A stretch of DNA of 57,191 nt from a virus: IMG/VR virus record IMGVR_UViG_3300024262_000034, positions 1-57,191 of that record. One strand, written 5' to 3'. Of this stretch, positions 12,245 to 19,977 are shown in pieces (the stretch's first letter is position 1; each line of letters begins with the position of its first letter). A program made the position numbers and the translations under genes. The notes beneath the pieces are model-generated. The model saw nothing but the letters and a program-made list of their open reading frames with translations, ran no database searches and was not told where the DNA came from.

Positions 12245-12549
12245 TCTTTCGGTTTCGGCCAACAATCATTCCCATCCAGATAGGTTTCCAGCCCGGCTAT
12301 GCAGGGGCAGACATGAAACCCCTTACTGCTTTTCCACTGTTTATCCTGCAACAACAGGTCAATATATTTCTGATACCTCGGCAGTTCGACCATATCATTA
12401 AATATACCGTCGTGATCCATTGACATCACACTGGCAAATTCAAACCCCTCCATCAACCAGCCGATTGTTTTATCAAACCAAACTTGAAAAATAAAGTCCA
12501 ACAGGTCTTCCTTGAGTTCGGACTCTAATATTTTTTTAACTGTAAGCAC
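12241..12549 (-). CDS. Hypothetical protein with GTG start (102 aa)
   Basis: The start is GTG, seven bases after AGGA, overlapping gene 12536-12922 by 14 bp. The product is helical at its N-terminus (KKILESELKEDLLDFIFQVW) and ends with a Cys pair (HVCPCIAG). No family is recognised. Confidence 0.7.
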   Translation of the reverse strand: MLTVKKILESELKEDLLDFIFQVWFDKTIGWLMEGFEFASVMSMDHDGIFNDMVELPRYQKYIDLLLQDKQWKSSKGFHVCPCIAGLETYLDGNDCWPKPKE

Positions 12550-12922
12550 GATAGCGTCCTATTGATATTTCTTGTTCAATCCGTTCCCGACGCAGAGGTG
12601 GAAAAAGTTCAATTGGTTTGTTTAACTCATGGGCCAACTCGAACTCTTCACCTAAGCCTGTTGATTCTTCCCACCCATTGGCATCCAGATATACCAGTTT
12701 ATCTGCCCACTTGATAAATTCTGTATTCATCTTTTGCCAGAAATTCCAATCATGTGGTAGATCAGTTATCACAGCAATGGGGCGGCAGTGAGTAATGGGT
12801 GAATAAACTATGTGACCTTCTTTCATTAGCTGTGCAGCAGCCGTGGTGACTACGAAATATCGAAACCGCATAATTTCTGCATCCGGGCTGCTATACGGCG
12901 TTGCTAAATATATTTTACTCAT
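12536..12922 (-). CDS. DUF1937-like nucleoside 2-deoxyribosyltransferase-fold protein (128 aa)
   Basis: It begins MSKIYLATPYSSPDAEIM and continues with AAQLMKEGHIVYSPITH, WNFWQKMNTEFIKWADKLVYLD and TGLGEEFELAHELNKPI. This is the Rossmann-like pattern of the nucleoside 2-deoxyribosyltransferase / DUF1937-DUF4406 group, with the E in GxGxEFELA at the usual place. I chose ATG 12922, which overlaps gene 12915-13499 by 8 bp. A nucleoside or NAD-related hydrolase is possible; the substrate cannot be read from sequence. Confidence 0.82.
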   Translation of the reverse strand: MSKIYLATPYSSPDAEIMRFRYFVVTTAAAQLMKEGHIVYSPITHCRPIAVITDLPHDWNFWQKMNTEFIKWADKLVYLDANGWEESTGLGEEFELAHELNKPIELFPPLRRERIEQEISIGRYRAYS

Positions 12923-13499
12923 CCTCATCAATCTCCATCTTAAAAGATAAGGGTCCAAAATCAATAATCATTGGCTTGCCTTTATAAACCCGCATGTTTG
13001 ACACCTGATTGTCATACCACTTGGCCTTTAAATGTTTGTAGCAAAGCTGCTCTAGTTGCTCAATATACCGCTTATACACCAGCTTCATTCGCACATATCG
13101 CTTTCCCACCTCATAGACTTCCTTTGGATTGTCTCCGGGTATCCTTTGAGTTTCATAAGCCCAAAGGCCTTTTTTGCCTTTCTGGATAAAGTCAACTATG
13201 TCCGTCGCCCCCATCCAGTCCGTATTGGTGCAAATGACTTCAAACAAGGCCGCCGTTGGAATAACTGGAAAACAAAGTGTCAATACTTCGGGTGCAAAAT
13301 TATGACTATGTGCTATGCTTTGTTTAAGAAAGGCATATTGACAGGACTTTTTAGTTGGGTAGATTTTGAGTGCCGACGTTCTCCCCGTAGGAAAAAATAT
13401 ACACTCACTCCCACCAACAATCGCCGCTTTGTTTGAACAGGGAATGTCTTGGATGATTCCGCTAGGTACGTTCTGTAACAATAATTTTTGTGTTGCCAT
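12915..13499 (-). CDS. Small protein-kinase-fold protein (194 aa)
   Basis: Three elements lie in kinase order: ALKIY at residues 43-47 (K45 as the VAIK lysine), then WYDNQVSNM with D163 and N168 at the D-x4-N spacing of the catalytic loop, then IIDFG (178-182) as the DFG motif. At 194 residues it is shorter than a canonical kinase, as are the phage kinase-like proteins I remember. Whether it phosphorylates anything is not known. It lies upstream of the DUF1937-like gene, overlapping it. Confidence 0.7.
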   Translation of the reverse strand: MATQKLLLQNVPSGIIQDIPCSNKAAIVGGSECIFFPTGRTSALKIYPTKKSCQYAFLKQSIAHSHNFAPEVLTLCFPVIPTAALFEVICTNTDWMGATDIVDFIQKGKKGLWAYETQRIPGDNPKEVYEVGKRYVRMKLVYKRYIEQLEQLCYKHLKAKWYDNQVSNMRVYKGKPMIIDFGPLSFKMEIDEDE

Positions 13500-14334: not shown

Positions 14335-14619
14335 TTACCCAGTTGACTCTGGATGGTTAGGGTTTCGAGCTTTGACCACAGTAACATCCAACGGGAGCAA
14401 CTGTTCCCCGGCTGCTTTCCATGCGGCATCAATGAGGTTGTCGTGAAATTCTTCATCATCAATCAGTTCTTTGTACTCACTCTCAAACAGCCATCGGGTA
14501 TAAACAAATTCGTTGTCATTAATCTGTAAGTGAACACACAACGCCGCCACTTGTTCAGGATGCTGGCGGTGCTTCTGAACATATTGAGATTCATAATCAT
14601 ATAGTATAAGTTGGATCAT
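14335..14619 (-). CDS. Hypothetical protein (94 aa)
   Basis: It overlaps the stop of the DUF3326 gene by ATGA. The product (MIQLILYDYESQYVQKHRQHPEQVAALCVHL) is acidic and helical with a short C-terminal beta segment. No family is recognised. The overlap suggests it is translated with the DUF3326 gene. Confidence 0.7.
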   Translation of the reverse strand: MIQLILYDYESQYVQKHRQHPEQVAALCVHLQINDNEFVYTRWLFESEYKELIDDEEFHDNLIDAAWKAAGEQLLPLDVTVVKARNPNHPESTG

Positions 14620-15623
14620 ATAATTCTTGTTTGCTCTAACGGTCTTCTCACAGAAGCCGGAACAACTCCAGCTTTCTTTGCGGCAACCACACCAGCCGCT
14701 TCAAGATAGTTATTCACATATATTATGTTGTGTTCGTGTGCATTAAAAAAAGCGTCATCACTGCGGCACACGCAGGTATTTTCCTCTACGACAATGATAG
14801 GGATGCCAAAAGCACAACATGCGTCATGCGGTGGACCCCATATACCAGCCGGGCTTATTAGGAAGTCCATATCCTGAACCCGTAAATCTCCACCAGTGTG
14901 AACTATCTTAGGGGCAACATGTGCTCCCTTGAAACAACAATGAATGTAACAGGTAGATACCGTTTCGGCTGCCTTGCGGGGATCAACAGCCTGATTGAAT
15001 TCAGACATGTCCATGTTTTCAACCGGGGCATGAATGACTGGCCGGTTCAGTTCACGGGACATAATTTTTGATAGTTGGGCTTCAACCCACCCCCATGGAT
15101 TAACACCACCGGGCTTTTCTAAATAGTCAAACACCACCTCCCGGTCAACCCTGATTGGCGTGTGTACTACCAGCACATCAAACGGAAGATACTGAACCTG
15201 TTTGATTGCTTCTTTGGCGTTCTTGATTGTTCCCGTTGCCAAGCCAGACTGCGGATCAAGGAACCCCTCCATTTTCAGACTACGATTAAGCTCAACAATC
15301 GTAATGTCTGCCCCCATGGTGGCTCTAGCTGCCGATGCAGCATTAACGACAGCCGGGGTGACTTCATTCACGGCCAATAGAATTTTATTGCCCTTGGCTT
15401 TTTTCAGTTCAATCTTACCATCTAAAAACCGAGTCAATATTGAACCCTCAACATAAAGCATGTTGTCAGTCATTTCATTGATGTCGGCTGCATTAACCAC
15501 GTTGGGGTGAACGATCAAATTGTCACACACCGCCGCTATCAGTTTGGCGGCTGGTGTGGCATCACCTGAATGACCACCAATCTCTGCTCCAAGTCCTGTG
15601 GGTATGATAAATACACAATTCAT
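14616..15623 (-). CDS. DUF3326 family protein (335 aa)
   Basis: The N-terminus (FIIPTGLGAEIGGHSGDATP, then CDNLIVHPNVVNAADINEM) and the C-terminal FLISPAGIWGPPHDACCAFG are the signature regions of DUF3326 as I remember it: a full-length family of roughly 340 residues known mostly from bacterial genomes, with no assigned reaction. Conserved Asp/His/Asn and several Cys look enzyme-like. The start follows GAGGTTATAATT. It lies two bases after the SpeD-like gene and ATGA-overlaps 14335-14619, so the three form one translational block. Its presence in a phage suggests an auxiliary metabolic role, but the substrate is unknown. Confidence 0.85.
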   Translation of the reverse strand: MNCVFIIPTGLGAEIGGHSGDATPAAKLIAAVCDNLIVHPNVVNAADINEMTDNMLYVEGSILTRFLDGKIELKKAKGNKILLAVNEVTPAVVNAASAARATMGADITIVELNRSLKMEGFLDPQSGLATGTIKNAKEAIKQVQYLPFDVLVVHTPIRVDREVVFDYLEKPGGVNPWGWVEAQLSKIMSRELNRPVIHAPVENMDMSEFNQAVDPRKAAETVSTCYIHCCFKGAHVAPKIVHTGGDLRVQDMDFLISPAGIWGPPHDACCAFGIPIIVVEENTCVCRSDDAFFNAHEHNIIYVNNYLEAAGVVAAKKAGVVPASVRRPLEQTRII

Positions 15624-15625
15624 AA

Positions 15626-15997
15626 TTATAACCTCGGAATAATTTCATAACGACATTTTTGAGCACCAAACCACTGTTTACTAAAATCCATAGCAACAAA
15701 AGTATCAAACTCTTTACAGGAAAAAATGTTGAGAAATACTTTTTTCAATCTATCCAGACAATGGATAGTAATGTTACTTGTTTTAATAAACTGGATTGCT
15801 GAAGTTCCAATTAAGTGATCTTCTTCATACCCGGCAACATCAGGATGTGTAAGGTCATCCCACCAATGAACTTCGACTCGTTCCATATCAATCAGATCAC
15901 ACAGTTTGACAAAATACTCTCCAATACATTCTCGGTTAAATGTCTTGGGGTCACAACCCTGTAAATCCAGTATTAATTCTTTACCATACGTTTCCAT
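15626..15997 (-). CDS. SpeD-like pyruvoyl decarboxylase homologue (123 aa)
   Basis: The frame matches bacterial S-adenosylmethionine decarboxylase over its whole length: YGKELILDLQGCDP at the N-terminus, then TSNITIH and IFSCKEFD. Relative to T. maritima SpeD (S63, H68, C83), the serine that becomes the pyruvoyl group (S74), the His (H79, +5) and the Cys (C94, +20) are all present at exact spacing. The residue before the cleavage serine is Thr, not the usual Glu, so self-processing or substrate may differ. SpeD homologues have been reported to have turned into ornithine or arginine decarboxylases in some bacteria and phages. I start at ATG 15997 after GAGGGATAAAACT; an ATG five codons upstream overlaps the previous gene. 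Paired with the DUF3326 gene (2-bp gap). Confidence 0.85.
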   Translation of the reverse strand: METYGKELILDLQGCDPKTFNRECIGEYFVKLCDLIDMERVEVHWWDDLTHPDVAGYEEDHLIGTSAIQFIKTSNITIHCLDRLKKVFLNIFSCKEFDTFVAMDFSKQWFGAQKCRYEIIPRL

Positions 15998-16001
15998 AGT
16001 T

Positions 16002-16271
16002 TTATCCCTCATGTGTCATTTTACAAACTATATTAAAACACAAATCATTTAAAAACTCTTCCTCAGCAACTTCAGGCTGAACAACTTTAGGGCAATTCGG
16101 GCATTGGACTTCATCACAAATTTGCTTCCGCCATTGGGGGTGGTACACAAAAAAATCGTATTTAACTGTAAATTCTTTTAAGCAGTCATGGCACAAGAAT
16201 TTCCCCGTAATTTTATTGTTACGCTCATAGGGATCAGAAATTTGTTGTATATTTATCAGTTCATAACTCAA
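16002..16271 (-). CDS. Zinc-ribbon protein with TTG start (89 aa)
   Basis: The start is TTG, overlapping the TGA of the primase-helicase by four bases, after GAGGAGATTCCGTT. The product has CHDCL at about residue 27 and CPNC about 30 residues later, the two knuckles of a zinc ribbon. It is the first gene of the SpeD-like/DUF3326 block. Role unknown. Confidence 0.72.
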   Translation of the reverse strand: MSYELINIQQISDPYERNNKITGKFLCHDCLKEFTVKYDFFVYHPQWRKQICDEVQCPNCPKVVQPEVAEEEFLNDLCFNIVCKMTHEG

Positions 16272-18688
16272 AACGGAATCTCCTCATTTACCTGTGTCGG
16301 AGCATCAACAATATCTTCAACAATGTCCCAGTTGTGGGGGCCACCAAAGTGAGTGTCCCAATGCTCCCGGCAGGTTTTCAGGTCTGGAATCAAATAGTAA
16401 CGGGGTCGTTCCTGAATCTTCGGGGGGCCACCATCTAAGGGCATGACTTCAACCGCACCACCACCCTGTTTGTTTTTGGGGAATTCACCCGGCAATGCTT
16501 TTTGTAAAAACTGGCCAAGCCTTGTGGCTGTGCTGCGGCGATTGCTGGATGAGAATGTTCGCATGTAACCGGTGTAGCTCAAGAGCATGTGGTTCTTGAG
16601 AACCATTGTTCGCCATTCAGCATCCCCATCAAGCAGGCGACCATCCTGTAATTTATTGTACCACCACTCTTCCTCAGTAGTCATGCTGTATAGCTTCTGT
16701 TCTTGTAAGGCTTTTGTCTTAGGGATGTCTCGCACATTATACTCAGACAGATCATAGTGCATCAAGTGATGTAACAATGCTTCATAACCACCGGATTCCA
16801 GTTCCGCAATAATATCTTTAAAATAGGCAGAATCTTGCATCTTCGTATCGGCAACATCCAATACAAAAAATCGACGATCATCCAGACCGGCAGGCACTAC
16901 CCAGTTGTTGTTAGAGGCCATGATGACATGCAGGCAGGAGCGACAAACGATTACATCTATTCCCTTAGCTTCGATAGCCAACTTATCTTCCGTCACCAAT
17001 GTCTTTAAAATGGATTCATTCTTAACATCCCCCGCATAGAATGCCTCATCCGCAAACAGGAAGACACAGCTTCGCAGATGAGAATTGAAATTACCGATCA
17101 GGTGTTTGGGGTTGGTCACTTGTAGGAAGTGCCGACCAAATAACTTTCCAATTGAACTTGCAAATACACCCTTACCCGCCCCGGCTCGACCCCGCATTAC
17201 CACCGCCGTATGCCCTTGTTGTTCTGGAATTTGTACGGCGGTAGCCAACCAGCCCATTAAATAATTAAAACATTTTTCATCATTGTTACAGATATTGTGT
17301 TGTACATGTTGTAAGAATTTTTCGCAGTCACCCTTTTTCGGCTCATACTTGAATCCATACCACATATTATATATGCCCTTTTCTTCTAGGTCTTTGTTAG
17401 GTATGAATTCGATGTTGTTATACTGCCGCCTCGCCGGTTGATCGAGCCACCATGAACCTTTTTTCTTTTTAATGGTTTCTATTTCGCCATCCTTATTCTT
17501 GATCTTAATGTCCACAGTCTCATTATCATGCTGTTTTTTAAAATCGGCAAAGGCTTGAAAAACCAACTCCGGCCTATCCAATGAATAGTCATACTGCTCA
17601 TAAACCACCATGCACTTGCCAGAGATTGTGACCACGGCATACTTCTCATTCATTCTGACAAGTTCTGGATGGACAACCGCTTCCCTTGCCCGGAGAATTT
17701 GTCGCTTAGCACAACGATCTGGATTTTTTTGTGCCAGCACATGTGCAGAAATTCCCCAATCTGGATCGGTAATGATGCTATATATGGTATCATCAGGAAC
17801 TTTAGCCACAACCAAACCGCATACAGCAGCAAATAACGCCTCAGACTTGGAAGCATACCGGTCAGGGTCTTCGTGGTCCTGACCTGTGGCAATAATCCGC
17901 TTTATTCTCTTAGAAAGACATTCCGGCAATTCAAGATCAATATCTTCTATCCTCTTGATATTACCAGAGATATGAACCTTACGGCTGTCTGTAAATCCTG
18001 TGGACCCATCATCCACCTCAGCCGCCATGTTGAACGTTTTTATATCATAAATGACATCATTAAAGTAGATAACTTTCGCTAAAGCCTCTTTGCGTCCACG
18101 TTTACGTTTGTTCTCATCCGGGCGGTTGATCGTGCCGGGCAGACGCATTATCCTATCCACATTATGACACTTATCACCCCCCAACTCCTGCTCCAGATAT
18201 TTGTTATAACGCTTGGCCTGCTCATACTTATCTGCCTGACCGTTAATCTCAACGGGGTCTTCAAGCCTCCAGAATGCCTGATAGCCGCCGCCAGAGAAGA
18301 TTATGCAGGTTGGGGCCGGAATGTCCCCCGGTGGCTGTCTGAGCAAGGATAGGGCACGTTCCTGCTCTTTTAGCAGGTCTTCCCCGCCCCTTGGGTCAAC
18401 ATCGACATGCAACCAAGCCATTTCCTTGATGTCTTCTCGTTGGGCCTTGGATTTTATGGCATTGATTACCGGATTGACATGAAAGTAGATATTACGCTCT
18501 GCCCCATACTCTTCCAGCCATGCTGCGGCGGCCTCTGTGGTGTCGGGAAAGAAGGTATCGGCCCGGAACACCTTCTTATCTGGATGAATGGCTGATAACG
18601 CCCATGGTCCATCTGGAGCGAACTTGCCAAGAAACTCAATTGATGCTATATAGTTTGGTTCCATATCTTCCAGCTTTAAGTATATCAT
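16268..18688 (-). CDS. Primase-helicase: AEP-type primase and SF3 helicase (about 806 aa)
   Basis: The N-terminal third has LHVDVDPR (about 94-100), IIFSGGGYQAFW and DRIMRLPGTINRP, the active-site motifs of an archaeo-eukaryotic type primase-polymerase domain. The C-terminal half has a Walker A GRAGAGKG (about 500), Walker B FLFADEA (about 545) and IMASNNNW (sensor/motif C), a superfamily 3 helicase of the phage D5/DUF5906 kind. It should prime and unwind at the phage fork together with the DNA polymerase. The last residues NEEIPF mimic the C-terminal tip of bacterial SSB. ATG 18688 is chosen; ATG 18664 (MEPNYIAS) is an alternative. It overlaps the nuclease gene upstream. Confidence 0.92.
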   Translation of the reverse strand: MIYLKLEDMEPNYIASIEFLGKFAPDGPWALSAIHPDKKVFRADTFFPDTTEAAAAWLEEYGAERNIYFHVNPVINAIKSKAQREDIKEMAWLHVDVDPRGGEDLLKEQERALSLLRQPPGDIPAPTCIIFSGGGYQAFWRLEDPVEINGQADKYEQAKRYNKYLEQELGGDKCHNVDRIMRLPGTINRPDENKRKRGRKEALAKVIYFNDVIYDIKTFNMAAEVDDGSTGFTDSRKVHISGNIKRIEDIDLELPECLSKRIKRIIATGQDHEDPDRYASKSEALFAAVCGLVVAKVPDDTIYSIITDPDWGISAHVLAQKNPDRCAKRQILRAREAVVHPELVRMNEKYAVVTISGKCMVVYEQYDYSLDRPELVFQAFADFKKQHDNETVDIKIKNKDGEIETIKKKKGSWWLDQPARRQYNNIEFIPNKDLEEKGIYNMWYGFKYEPKKGDCEKFLQHVQHNICNNDEKCFNYLMGWLATAVQIPEQQGHTAVVMRGRAGAGKGVFASSIGKLFGRHFLQVTNPKHLIGNFNSHLRSCVFLFADEAFYAGDVKNESILKTLVTEDKLAIEAKGIDVIVCRSCLHVIMASNNNWVVPAGLDDRRFFVLDVADTKMQDSAYFKDIIAELESGGYEALLHHLMHYDLSEYNVRDIPKTKALQEQKLYSMTTEEEWWYNKLQDGRLLDGDAEWRTMVLKNHMLLSYTGYMRTFSSSNRRSTATRLGQFLQKALPGEFPKNKQGGGAVEVMPLDGGPPKIQERPRYYLIPDLKTCREHWDTHFGGPHNWDIVEDIVDAPTQVNEEIPF

Positions 18689-19088
18689 GTAGTTCCGTCT
18701 TGTCAAGCCCTTTTTCCCAGTATTTATGGCAGTTGTCAAGCAGTGCTTGACGGCTCACCCGACCAACCTTGAGTGCCTGTTCACCCGTAAACAGTAGCCA
18801 TTCATCCGTAGCCTCAACACGCAGCAGCAGCCAGCAGGAGCCACCACGGAGCCAACGGCGGTATAGGAACACCCTCTGGTGCGGCTTATAGTGCGGAATC
18901 CGCACCGGCGTTGCCGCCCGTTTGGGCCATTCAGGTAGTCGTTTCAGTTCGATCTCCCCACCAATATAGTTGGTGTCCGGGTATCCAATCTGCCCACCCC
19001 GATAGACATCGTTCTCGATGGCAACAGGGTCCAACTTTCGGATTGCCTTGTGTACGTCCTGCCGCATTTTTGATTCTGGTTTTGGCAT
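18636..19088 (-). CDS. PD-(D/E)XK nuclease (150 aa)
   Basis: Residues about 34-50 have GYPDTNYIGGEIELKRL: PD, then ExELK, the catalytic core of PD-(D/E)XK nucleases such as VRR-NUC and Holliday-junction resolvase-like enzymes. Small basic phage nucleases of this type commonly sit beside replication genes and process recombination or replication intermediates. The start follows GAGGATTACTG. It overlaps the primase-helicase by about 50 bp. Confidence 0.85.
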   Translation of the reverse strand: MPKPESKMRQDVHKAIRKLDPVAIENDVYRGGQIGYPDTNYIGGEIELKRLPEWPKRAATPVRIPHYKPHQRVFLYRRWLRGGSCWLLLRVEATDEWLLFTGEQALKVGRVSRQALLDNCHKYWEKGLDKTELHDILKAGRYGTKLYSIN

Positions 19089-19326: not shown

Positions 19327-19977
19327 TTAAAATGGTGTGTTCCAAATGTCGTAAAGTGTTACCTGAACTCCGCACTCATCAAACAGCTTTTGTGATTGGT
19401 TCAAATCGCTCGCCCAACGCTCCTGATCGGACCCCGGCTGGATGATTGGTGCTACCACCCGCCCTATTCCAAAACCAATCATGTGGGTGGCACACCTAGA
19501 GCAGGGCATAAACGGCCAAGTATAGAGGGTAGAATTTCTTAAAACTGGCACTTCACGACAGTTTTGTGCTGCATTCATTTCAGCGTGGATGACTCGTTTA
19601 TACTTCTCTTCCCGGTTATTCCACCATTCCGGCTTGTCTTCCATTTTGGCTGGAAAGTCGTTGTGACCTTCACCAACTATTCGGTGGTCCTCTGCCACAA
19701 AAAGAGCACCAGTTTTTGTACTGGGGTCTTTTGACCAGCGAGCGATTTCTTCCGCAAGTCGAAGAAATCGGTGATCCCAAAGAGAAACTTGGCAGTTTTC
19801 TGTGTACTCTAAATCCAGTGCTTTAAATGCTGTTTCAACCGCACCACCGTAAAAATCATACAGATATGCCACTTTATCCGGTGTAACCATAGCTAACATA
19901 TCTTTTTCACCATAGCCCACATGTTTTTTGATGTAGGACCGCAAATCGTTCTCGAACTTAAGAGCACCCATCGCCAT
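19327..19977 (-). CDS. Deoxycytidylate (dCMP) deaminase
   Basis: A zinc-dependent cytidine-deaminase fold: HAEMNA (H131, E133) and PCSRC (C159, C162) bind zinc and supply the catalytic Glu. The substrate region WSKDPSTKTGA at 81-91 is typical of dCMP deaminases. It converts dCMP to dUMP, feeding ThyX. An N-terminal extension of about 60 residues is longer than in the usual family. The start (MAMGALKF) follows AGAGGAAACAAAAAG and lies inside the end of membrane-protein gene 19958-20104. Confidence 0.93.
   Translation of the reverse strand: MAMGALKFENDLRSYIKKHVGYGEKDMLAMVTPDKVAYLYDFYGGAVETAFKALDLEYTENCQVSLWDHRFLRLAEEIARWSKDPSTKTGALFVAEDHRIVGEGHNDFPAKMEDKPEWWNNREEKYKRVIHAEMNAAQNCREVPVLRNSTLYTWPFMPCSRCATHMIGFGIGRVVAPIIQPGSDQERWASDLNQSQKLFDECGVQVTLYDIWNTPF

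Follow-up and report, generated by a model that had tools for sequence, protein, structure and literature searches.

A SpeD-like pyruvoyl decarboxylase gene paired with DUF3326 in a phage, and the recurrence of the pair in viruses, bacteria and archaea

Described SpeD families and the phage gene run

Li et al. 2023 (PMC10407285) give Gln, Thr, Phe and Tyr as the diagnostic residues of the pyruvoyl ornithine decarboxylases (SpeDC), and a conserved Pro (HTWPE) as the residue that sets S-adenosylmethionine decarboxylase (AdoMetDC) apart; the positions used for these residues below were deduced from sequences and not from the figure of that paper. SpeD homologues of phages can decarboxylate ornithine or arginine (PMC9992855), and operons that join AdoMetDC to DUF350, DUF1190 and a glutathionylspermidine-synthase-like gene have been described (PMC11237479). 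DUF3326 is found in cyanobacteria, where a fed3-DUF650-DUF3326 arrangement is reported for Synechocystis (PMC4284462), and is annotated in plants, without an assigned reaction. No report of a SpeD-DUF3326 pairing was found in the open literature searched. Since the phage and bacterial SpeD papers do not mention DUF3326 in their main text, and DUF3326 is rarely named at all, the pairing appears to be undescribed in the literature searched.

The window, i.e. the whole 57,191-base stretch of an IMG/VR virus record, carries the pair within a minus-strand run (Table 1). The three neighbouring genes picked out by an earlier sequence-only reading were recovered as open reading frames at the same places, and both the 2-bp gap (SpeD stop TAA, two bases, DUF3326 ATG) and the ATGA overlap of DUF3326 with the next frame were borne out. 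The longest SpeD-like frame encodes 128 residues, the numbering used here. AGGG, a Shine-Dalgarno-like sequence, lies 8 nt upstream of the second ATG, which also agrees with the usual start of the family in the alignment; this second ATG is the likely start, and the resulting length matches the 123 residues first read. The flanking 89-aa frame had been called a zinc ribbon. Two CxxC pairs suggest one, and no Pfam model matched the frame above cut-off. No such neighbour recurs at other SpeD/DUF3326 loci, placing this frame outside the recurrent unit, and the 94-aa frame on the other side is likewise not recurrent in other loci.

Table 1. Positions of the features discussed, in the window (no prefix) or in the locus named
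Feature	Position	Strand	Remarks
SpeD-like pyruvoyl decarboxylase (probable)	15626..15997	minus	123 aa from second ATG (15997); AdoMet_dc match
SpeD-like ORF, longest form	15626-16012	minus	128 aa, first ATG at 16012
Codon of Ser79	15776..15778	minus	predicted self-cleavage site and pyruvoyl precursor; Ser in 78/78 relatives
Codon of His84 (Ser+5)	15761..15763	minus	putative processing/catalytic His; 78/78 relatives
Codon of Cys99 (Ser+20)	15716..15718	minus	putative catalytic Cys; 77/78 relatives
DUF3326 protein	14616..15623	minus	335 aa; PF11805 E 5.4e-67
89-aa ORF	16002..16271	minus	CxxC pairs CHDC and CPNC; upstream of SpeD-like gene
94-aa ORF	14335..14619	minus	overlaps DUF3326 stop by ATGA
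Primase gene	16268-18739		precedes 89-aa ORF in the minus-strand run
Nucleoside 2-deoxyribosyltransferase-like gene (DUF1937)	12539-12964		
dCMP-deaminase-like gene	19330-19977		
Short PSD-family proteins	L119:7035-7880, L120:7035-7880, L123:7040-7822		directly downstream of DUF3326
PtuA-PtuB-like genes	L018:4172-6188, L040:1-1381, L047:4126-6127, L050:5289-7358		directly upstream of SpeD-DUF3326
Homing endonuclease genes	L004:813-1592, L147:6389-6973		
Long ORFs with SpeD domain	L118:4131-5981, L121:2273-5980		617 and 1236 aa
Enolase paralogue	L065:171-1580		
Glutamate-dehydrogenase-family gene	L128:4173-5420		
130-aa protein gene	L081:7516-7902		

The DUF3326-linked SpeD as a separate subfamily

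The SpeD-like protein matches Pfam AdoMet_dc (E 2.4e-13) and PHROG 3125, S-adenosylmethionine decarboxylase (E 8e-14). An AlphaFold model built with 78 sequences reached a pLDDT of 91.6 and has the SpeD fold, its best PDB match being the T. maritima AdoMetDC 1vr7 (Foldseek E 2e-9, TM 0.77); as single sequences, neither this protein nor DUF3326 gave more than chance matches in a phmmer search of the PDB. The pyruvoyl Ser, His and Cys spacing of 0, +5 and +20 that had been read from the sequence holds, with Ser79, His84 and Cys99, and in the profile alignment Ser79 falls on the cleavage Ser of the T. maritima enzyme. Across 78 relatives from viruses, bacteria and archaea, the triad is conserved as Ser in 78, His in 78 and Cys in 77. 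The product is thus a probable self-cleaving pyruvoyl decarboxylase. The sequence-only reading had further remarked on a Thr in place of Glu at the cleavage site: Thr78 is indeed present, but it is no anomaly, since Thr precedes the cleavage Ser in 66 of the 74 distinct motifs of the DUF3326-linked subfamily as well as in 30/30 SpeDC-type motifs. At two loci (L118, L121), the SpeD domain forms the C-terminal part of a long frame with DUF3326 directly after it; the N-terminal parts matched no Pfam family over cut-off.

Comparison of the diagnostic positions separates the DUF3326-linked proteins from both described groups. Viral SpeDC-type motifs (n = 30 distinct) carry Gln, Thr and Phe without exception and Tyr in 29, whereas the DUF3326-linked motifs (n = 74 distinct) have Gln in 73, Thr in 66, Tyr in 46 and Phe in none. 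The window protein shares the SpeDC Gln and Thr (Q74, T78) but has Cys85 at the Phe position after the His and Phe93 at the Tyr position; the AdoMetDC Pro is replaced by Asp87, and Pro is found there in 3 of the 78 relatives. Likewise, in a tree of 77 sequences the canonical SpeD proteins form one clade (100/100) that contains no DUF3326-linked SpeD, and the SpeDC clade (100/98) excludes every DUF3326-linked row, while DUF3326-linked and SpeDC sequences are joined to the exclusion of canonical SpeD (100/100). The SpeDC clade possibly branches from within the DUF3326-linked sequences, though internal tree support is weak. By motif and tree, the DUF3326-linked SpeD is classed as a distinct subfamily belonging to neither the AdoMetDC nor the SpeDC clade. 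AdoMet, which had been listed beside ornithine and arginine as a conceivable substrate, is not supported, because the AdoMetDC proline is missing and the clade is separate from the canonical one. The subfamily would add to AdoMetDC and ornithine decarboxylase a further, undescribed SpeD branch that spread between viruses, bacteria and archaea and close to which SpeDC arose.

One genome (G019) encodes three SpeD-family proteins, scoring 141 bits (canonical), 78 bits (SpeDC-type) and 49 bits (DUF3326-linked). The first two share a cluster with SpeE and the third lies elsewhere; as canonical and SpeDC-type enzymes are already present, the DUF3326-linked protein is probably not redundant and does something else. 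A separate record, described as a phage (Microcystis phage MaAM05, MW495066.1; L203), has a cluster annotated speH_2-speH_1-speE-speB, in which the second SpeD, being near agmatinase, may be an arginine decarboxylase.

Recurrence of the pair and decarboxylases beside DUF3326

Scanning viral contigs with DUF3326 alone returned 40 loci, 35 of them distinct. SpeD lies directly upstream on the same strand in 26 of the 35 and within 0.9 kb in 4 more, and the gap in the adjacent loci is mostly -1 to 7 nt. When SpeD alone was the query of the reciprocal scan, 47 distinct loci resulted: DUF3326 adjoins SpeD in 28, is present elsewhere in the locus in 6 and is missing from 13. In cells, SpeD is immediately upstream in 23 of 80 DUF3326 loci, from Planctomycetota, Pseudomonadota, Myxococcota, Nitrospirota, Omnitrophota, Bacteroidota, Patescibacteria-type MAGs, a Thermoplasmatota MAG and others. 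For some of the short-form cellular loci (L016-L021), viral contigs may have ended up in MAGs through binning; whole chromosomes are represented among the long-form loci (L048, L053, L055). In viral SpeDC-type loci, which served as a control, DUF3326 was found within about 4 kb in 0/54 cases. The pairing, for which the sequence-only reading had proposed a search of other genomes, is confirmed and stronger than first stated, being both real and specific. At two loci (L004, L147) a GIY-YIG/NUMOD3 homing endonuclease is the sole gene splitting SpeD and DUF3326. No DUF3326 match was found in phage isolates and plasmids.

Assignment of the 335-aa protein to DUF3326 (PF11805) is certain, at 226.6 bits against a cut-off of 25 over residues 3-325. 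Its AlphaFold model (111 sequences; pLDDT 93.9, pTM 0.91) has two alpha/beta domains. A set of 15 conserved polar residues (T9, D21, N41, N44, N54, Y57, E59, N79, N94, Y167, E181, H198, E220, Y306 and E308) is complete in the window protein, each residue being present in 95-100% of 111 relatives; no near-invariant Lys or Cys was found among these relatives. Foldseek against the PDB gave a best E of 9e-3 at a TM of about 0.2, and viral structure comparison (VIA) a best Z of 9.1 with an rmsd of 3.3 over 118 residues. As the Foldseek match is weak and the VIA matches are mixed, unrelated alpha/beta folds, no fold is claimed. A resemblance to methylaspartate ammonia-lyase (E 0.0035) was far below cut-off and was treated as chance.

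About half of the cellular DUF3326 loci are without an adjoining decarboxylase (Cyanobacteria, Vampirovibrionia-type and one planctomycete/verrucomicrobial group), and DUF3326 can therefore work without a linked one. In Prochlorococcus it comes after a 2Fe-2S ferredoxin gene, in line with the arrangement reported for Synechocystis (PMC4284462). Other neighbours comprise an enolase paralogue overlapping the DUF3326 start in a Polyangia MAG (L065), a glutamate-dehydrogenase-family gene upstream of DUF3326 in a viral contig with no SpeD (L128) and, in Gastranaerophilales (L081 and relatives), a conserved 130-aa protein of no assigned family encoded directly upstream.

Elsewhere the SpeD gene is replaced by genes for unrelated decarboxylases. 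In 11 cellular loci the start of DUF3326 is overlapped by the gene of an NspC-like PLP enzyme; genome searches re-found several of these loci and added two (L180, L197), giving 13 genomes in all. The NspC-like enzymes match TIGR01047 at E 1e-74 to 1e-89, under its equivalog cut-off (250-298 bits vs 409), and in those that could be parsed the lysine and cysteine motifs are as expected. DUF3326 is encoded by 11 of the 27 genomes of one alphaproteobacterial order; SpeD is upstream in 7, the NspC-like gene in 4 and both in 0. At a single locus (L182) an Orn/Lys/Arg decarboxylase (PF01276, E 2e-50) is the next gene downstream. Two SpeD-less viruses encode a phosphatidylserine-decarboxylase (PSD)-family protein directly after DUF3326 (L119 and L123, E 2.5e-14 and 6e-19), and clustering places the same gene in L120, making 3 viruses in all. 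WGSQTV takes the place of the usual cleavage motif in these proteins; by our own reading, the pyruvoyl Ser would lie at its Gly-Ser. Without a coupling of DUF3326 to decarboxylation, it would be difficult to account for four unrelated decarboxylase families beside it, and a functional coupling to amino-acid decarboxylation appears to exist. The known substrates of PSD-type and NspC-type enzymes differ, so that a common substrate is not certain. The coupling offers a tangible lead on what DUF3326 does, one that a two-protein assay could test.

A polyamine-type setting, as first suggested, is supported by the NspC-like, Orn/Lys/Arg and PSD-family replacements together with GSP_synth-like genes upstream in three loci: DUF350-DUF1190-GSP_synth stands directly before SpeD-DUF3326 in L055, and GSP_synth also lies ahead of SpeD in L057 and of the NspC-like gene in L060. 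The idea that hosts are without other polyamine genes was dropped; the picture is mixed, and many have speD/speE elsewhere. In the closed planctomycete chromosomes G012 and G015 the linked AdoMet_dc is the only one, no deoxyhypusine-synthase-type enzyme was found and Spermine_synth occurs only in long multidomain proteins. For DNA charge neutralisation or base modification, the uses proposed by the sequence-only reading, no evidence was found, and among the best 25 of 111 families in a window-wide scan none was specifically a DNA base-modification gene. The phage also encodes ribonucleotide reductase and thymidylate synthase families in the same scan, and the nucleotide-metabolism-type genes listed in Table 1.

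A proposed amine module, its alternatives and known systems

The phage pair is rather likely to be a copy of a two-enzyme metabolic module of viruses, bacteria and archaea that makes or uses an amine. The SpeD-like protein would cleave itself between Thr78 and Ser79, the serine becoming a pyruvoyl group, and would then remove the alpha-carboxyl of an amino-acid-type substrate other than AdoMet to give a primary amine. Judged from the decarboxylases that replace SpeD, the substrate may be ornithine-like or an N-substituted basic amino acid. DUF3326, which is enzyme-like, would either make that amino acid or use the amine, and in the infected cell the pair may serve as an auxiliary metabolic module raising a polyamine-like compound. 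Such a two-enzyme pathway around an amine would be undescribed.

A simpler account would have the SpeD-like protein act as a plain phage pyruvoyl ornithine or arginine decarboxylase (SpeDC/SpeDA) yielding putrescine or agmatine, with DUF3326 as a loosely linked accessory. Phage SpeD homologues with these activities are already known (PMC9992855), and the shared Gln and Thr as well as the grouping with SpeDC against canonical AdoMetDC (100/100) point the same way. We nevertheless find this account doubtful, given that the diagnostic Phe is missing from 74/74 motifs and Tyr is present in just 46/74, that SpeDC forms its own clade (100/98), that no viral SpeDC-type locus out of 54 has DUF3326 and that G019 keeps its SpeD, SpeDC-type and SpeE genes in a separate cluster. 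Far less probable still is a catalytically dead SpeD-like protein that activates or scaffolds DUF3326 in the manner of the trypanosome AdoMetDC prozyme. The small size of the protein, its tight coupling to DUF3326 and its divergent substrate pocket would suit such a partner, but the near-complete conservation of the triad from viruses to archaea, and the replacement of SpeD by PLP decarboxylases with the expected lysine/cysteine motifs where parsed, speak against it.

The pair could also belong to phage-host conflict, working in cells with PtuA-PtuB-like (Septu) proteins and carried by phages as counter-defence; the amine, or RNA or a nucleotide modified with it, would perhaps protect self or arm the nuclease. 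In four loci from different phyla, SpeD is preceded by PtuA-PtuB-like genes that end 0-47 bp away from it, with PADLOC matches to PtuA (E 1e-47 to 1e-56 in L018, L047 and L050; the L040 gene is cut by the contig end) and to PtuB (E 1e-29 to 1e-59, at every one of the loci), and PtuA-PtuB-SpeD-DUF3326 is possibly a four-gene defence operon. Septu is reported to cut tRNA-Tyr (PMC13096335). Against this, PtuAB-like genes occur at just 4 of the 23 cellular SpeD-DUF3326 loci, the other cellular pairs adjoining GSP synthase, glycosyltransferase, cyclase or unrelated genes; no defence model matched SpeD or DUF3326, and no link between Septu and a decarboxylase was found in the searched literature. 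A role in conflict is quite unlikely in our estimate. An equally long shot is an immune system of four genes, so far undescribed, in which the product of SpeD and DUF3326 (an amine, or a nucleotide or RNA modified with one) acts together with PtuAB-like nucleases; phages would then have the biosynthetic pair as a means of surviving it.

The metabolic-module reading can be set against the closest known systems. With AdoMetDC of SpeD class 1b (T. maritima TM0655, 1tlu/1vr7) the window protein has the fold (TM 0.77) and triad in common, but its subfamily carries HTLD/HCLD rather than HTWPE, lacks the conserved Pro and has Thr instead of Glu before the Ser; identity is 18% and the clades are separate. 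SpeDC (Li et al. 2023, PMC10407285; phage examples in PMC9992855) shares the SpeD fold, the Ser/His/Cys spacing, the Gln at -5 and the Thr before the Ser, and differs in the diagnostic Phe (0/74 in DUF3326-linked SpeD), in the Tyr (variable, Phe in the window) and in the pairing with DUF3326. From NspC, the carboxynorspermidine/carboxyspermidine decarboxylase (TIGR01047; 9eaf, 3n29), the NspC-like clade that occupies the place of SpeD upstream of DUF3326 diverges in having Ala, Phe, Asp or Thr, not Glu, after EPG; relative to SpeD it is a non-homologous PLP enzyme. As for Septu (PtuA-PtuB), the PtuAB-like genes stand directly before the pair in the four cellular loci, and a Pfam scan of the window neighbours found none beside the phage pair. 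Septu is not known to contain a decarboxylase or DUF3326. The operons of PMC11237479 are matched in L055 by DUF350-DUF1190-GSP_synth before SpeD, with the differences that this SpeD belongs to the DUF3326-linked subfamily and that DUF3326 is added; the phage has just the last two genes of this arrangement.
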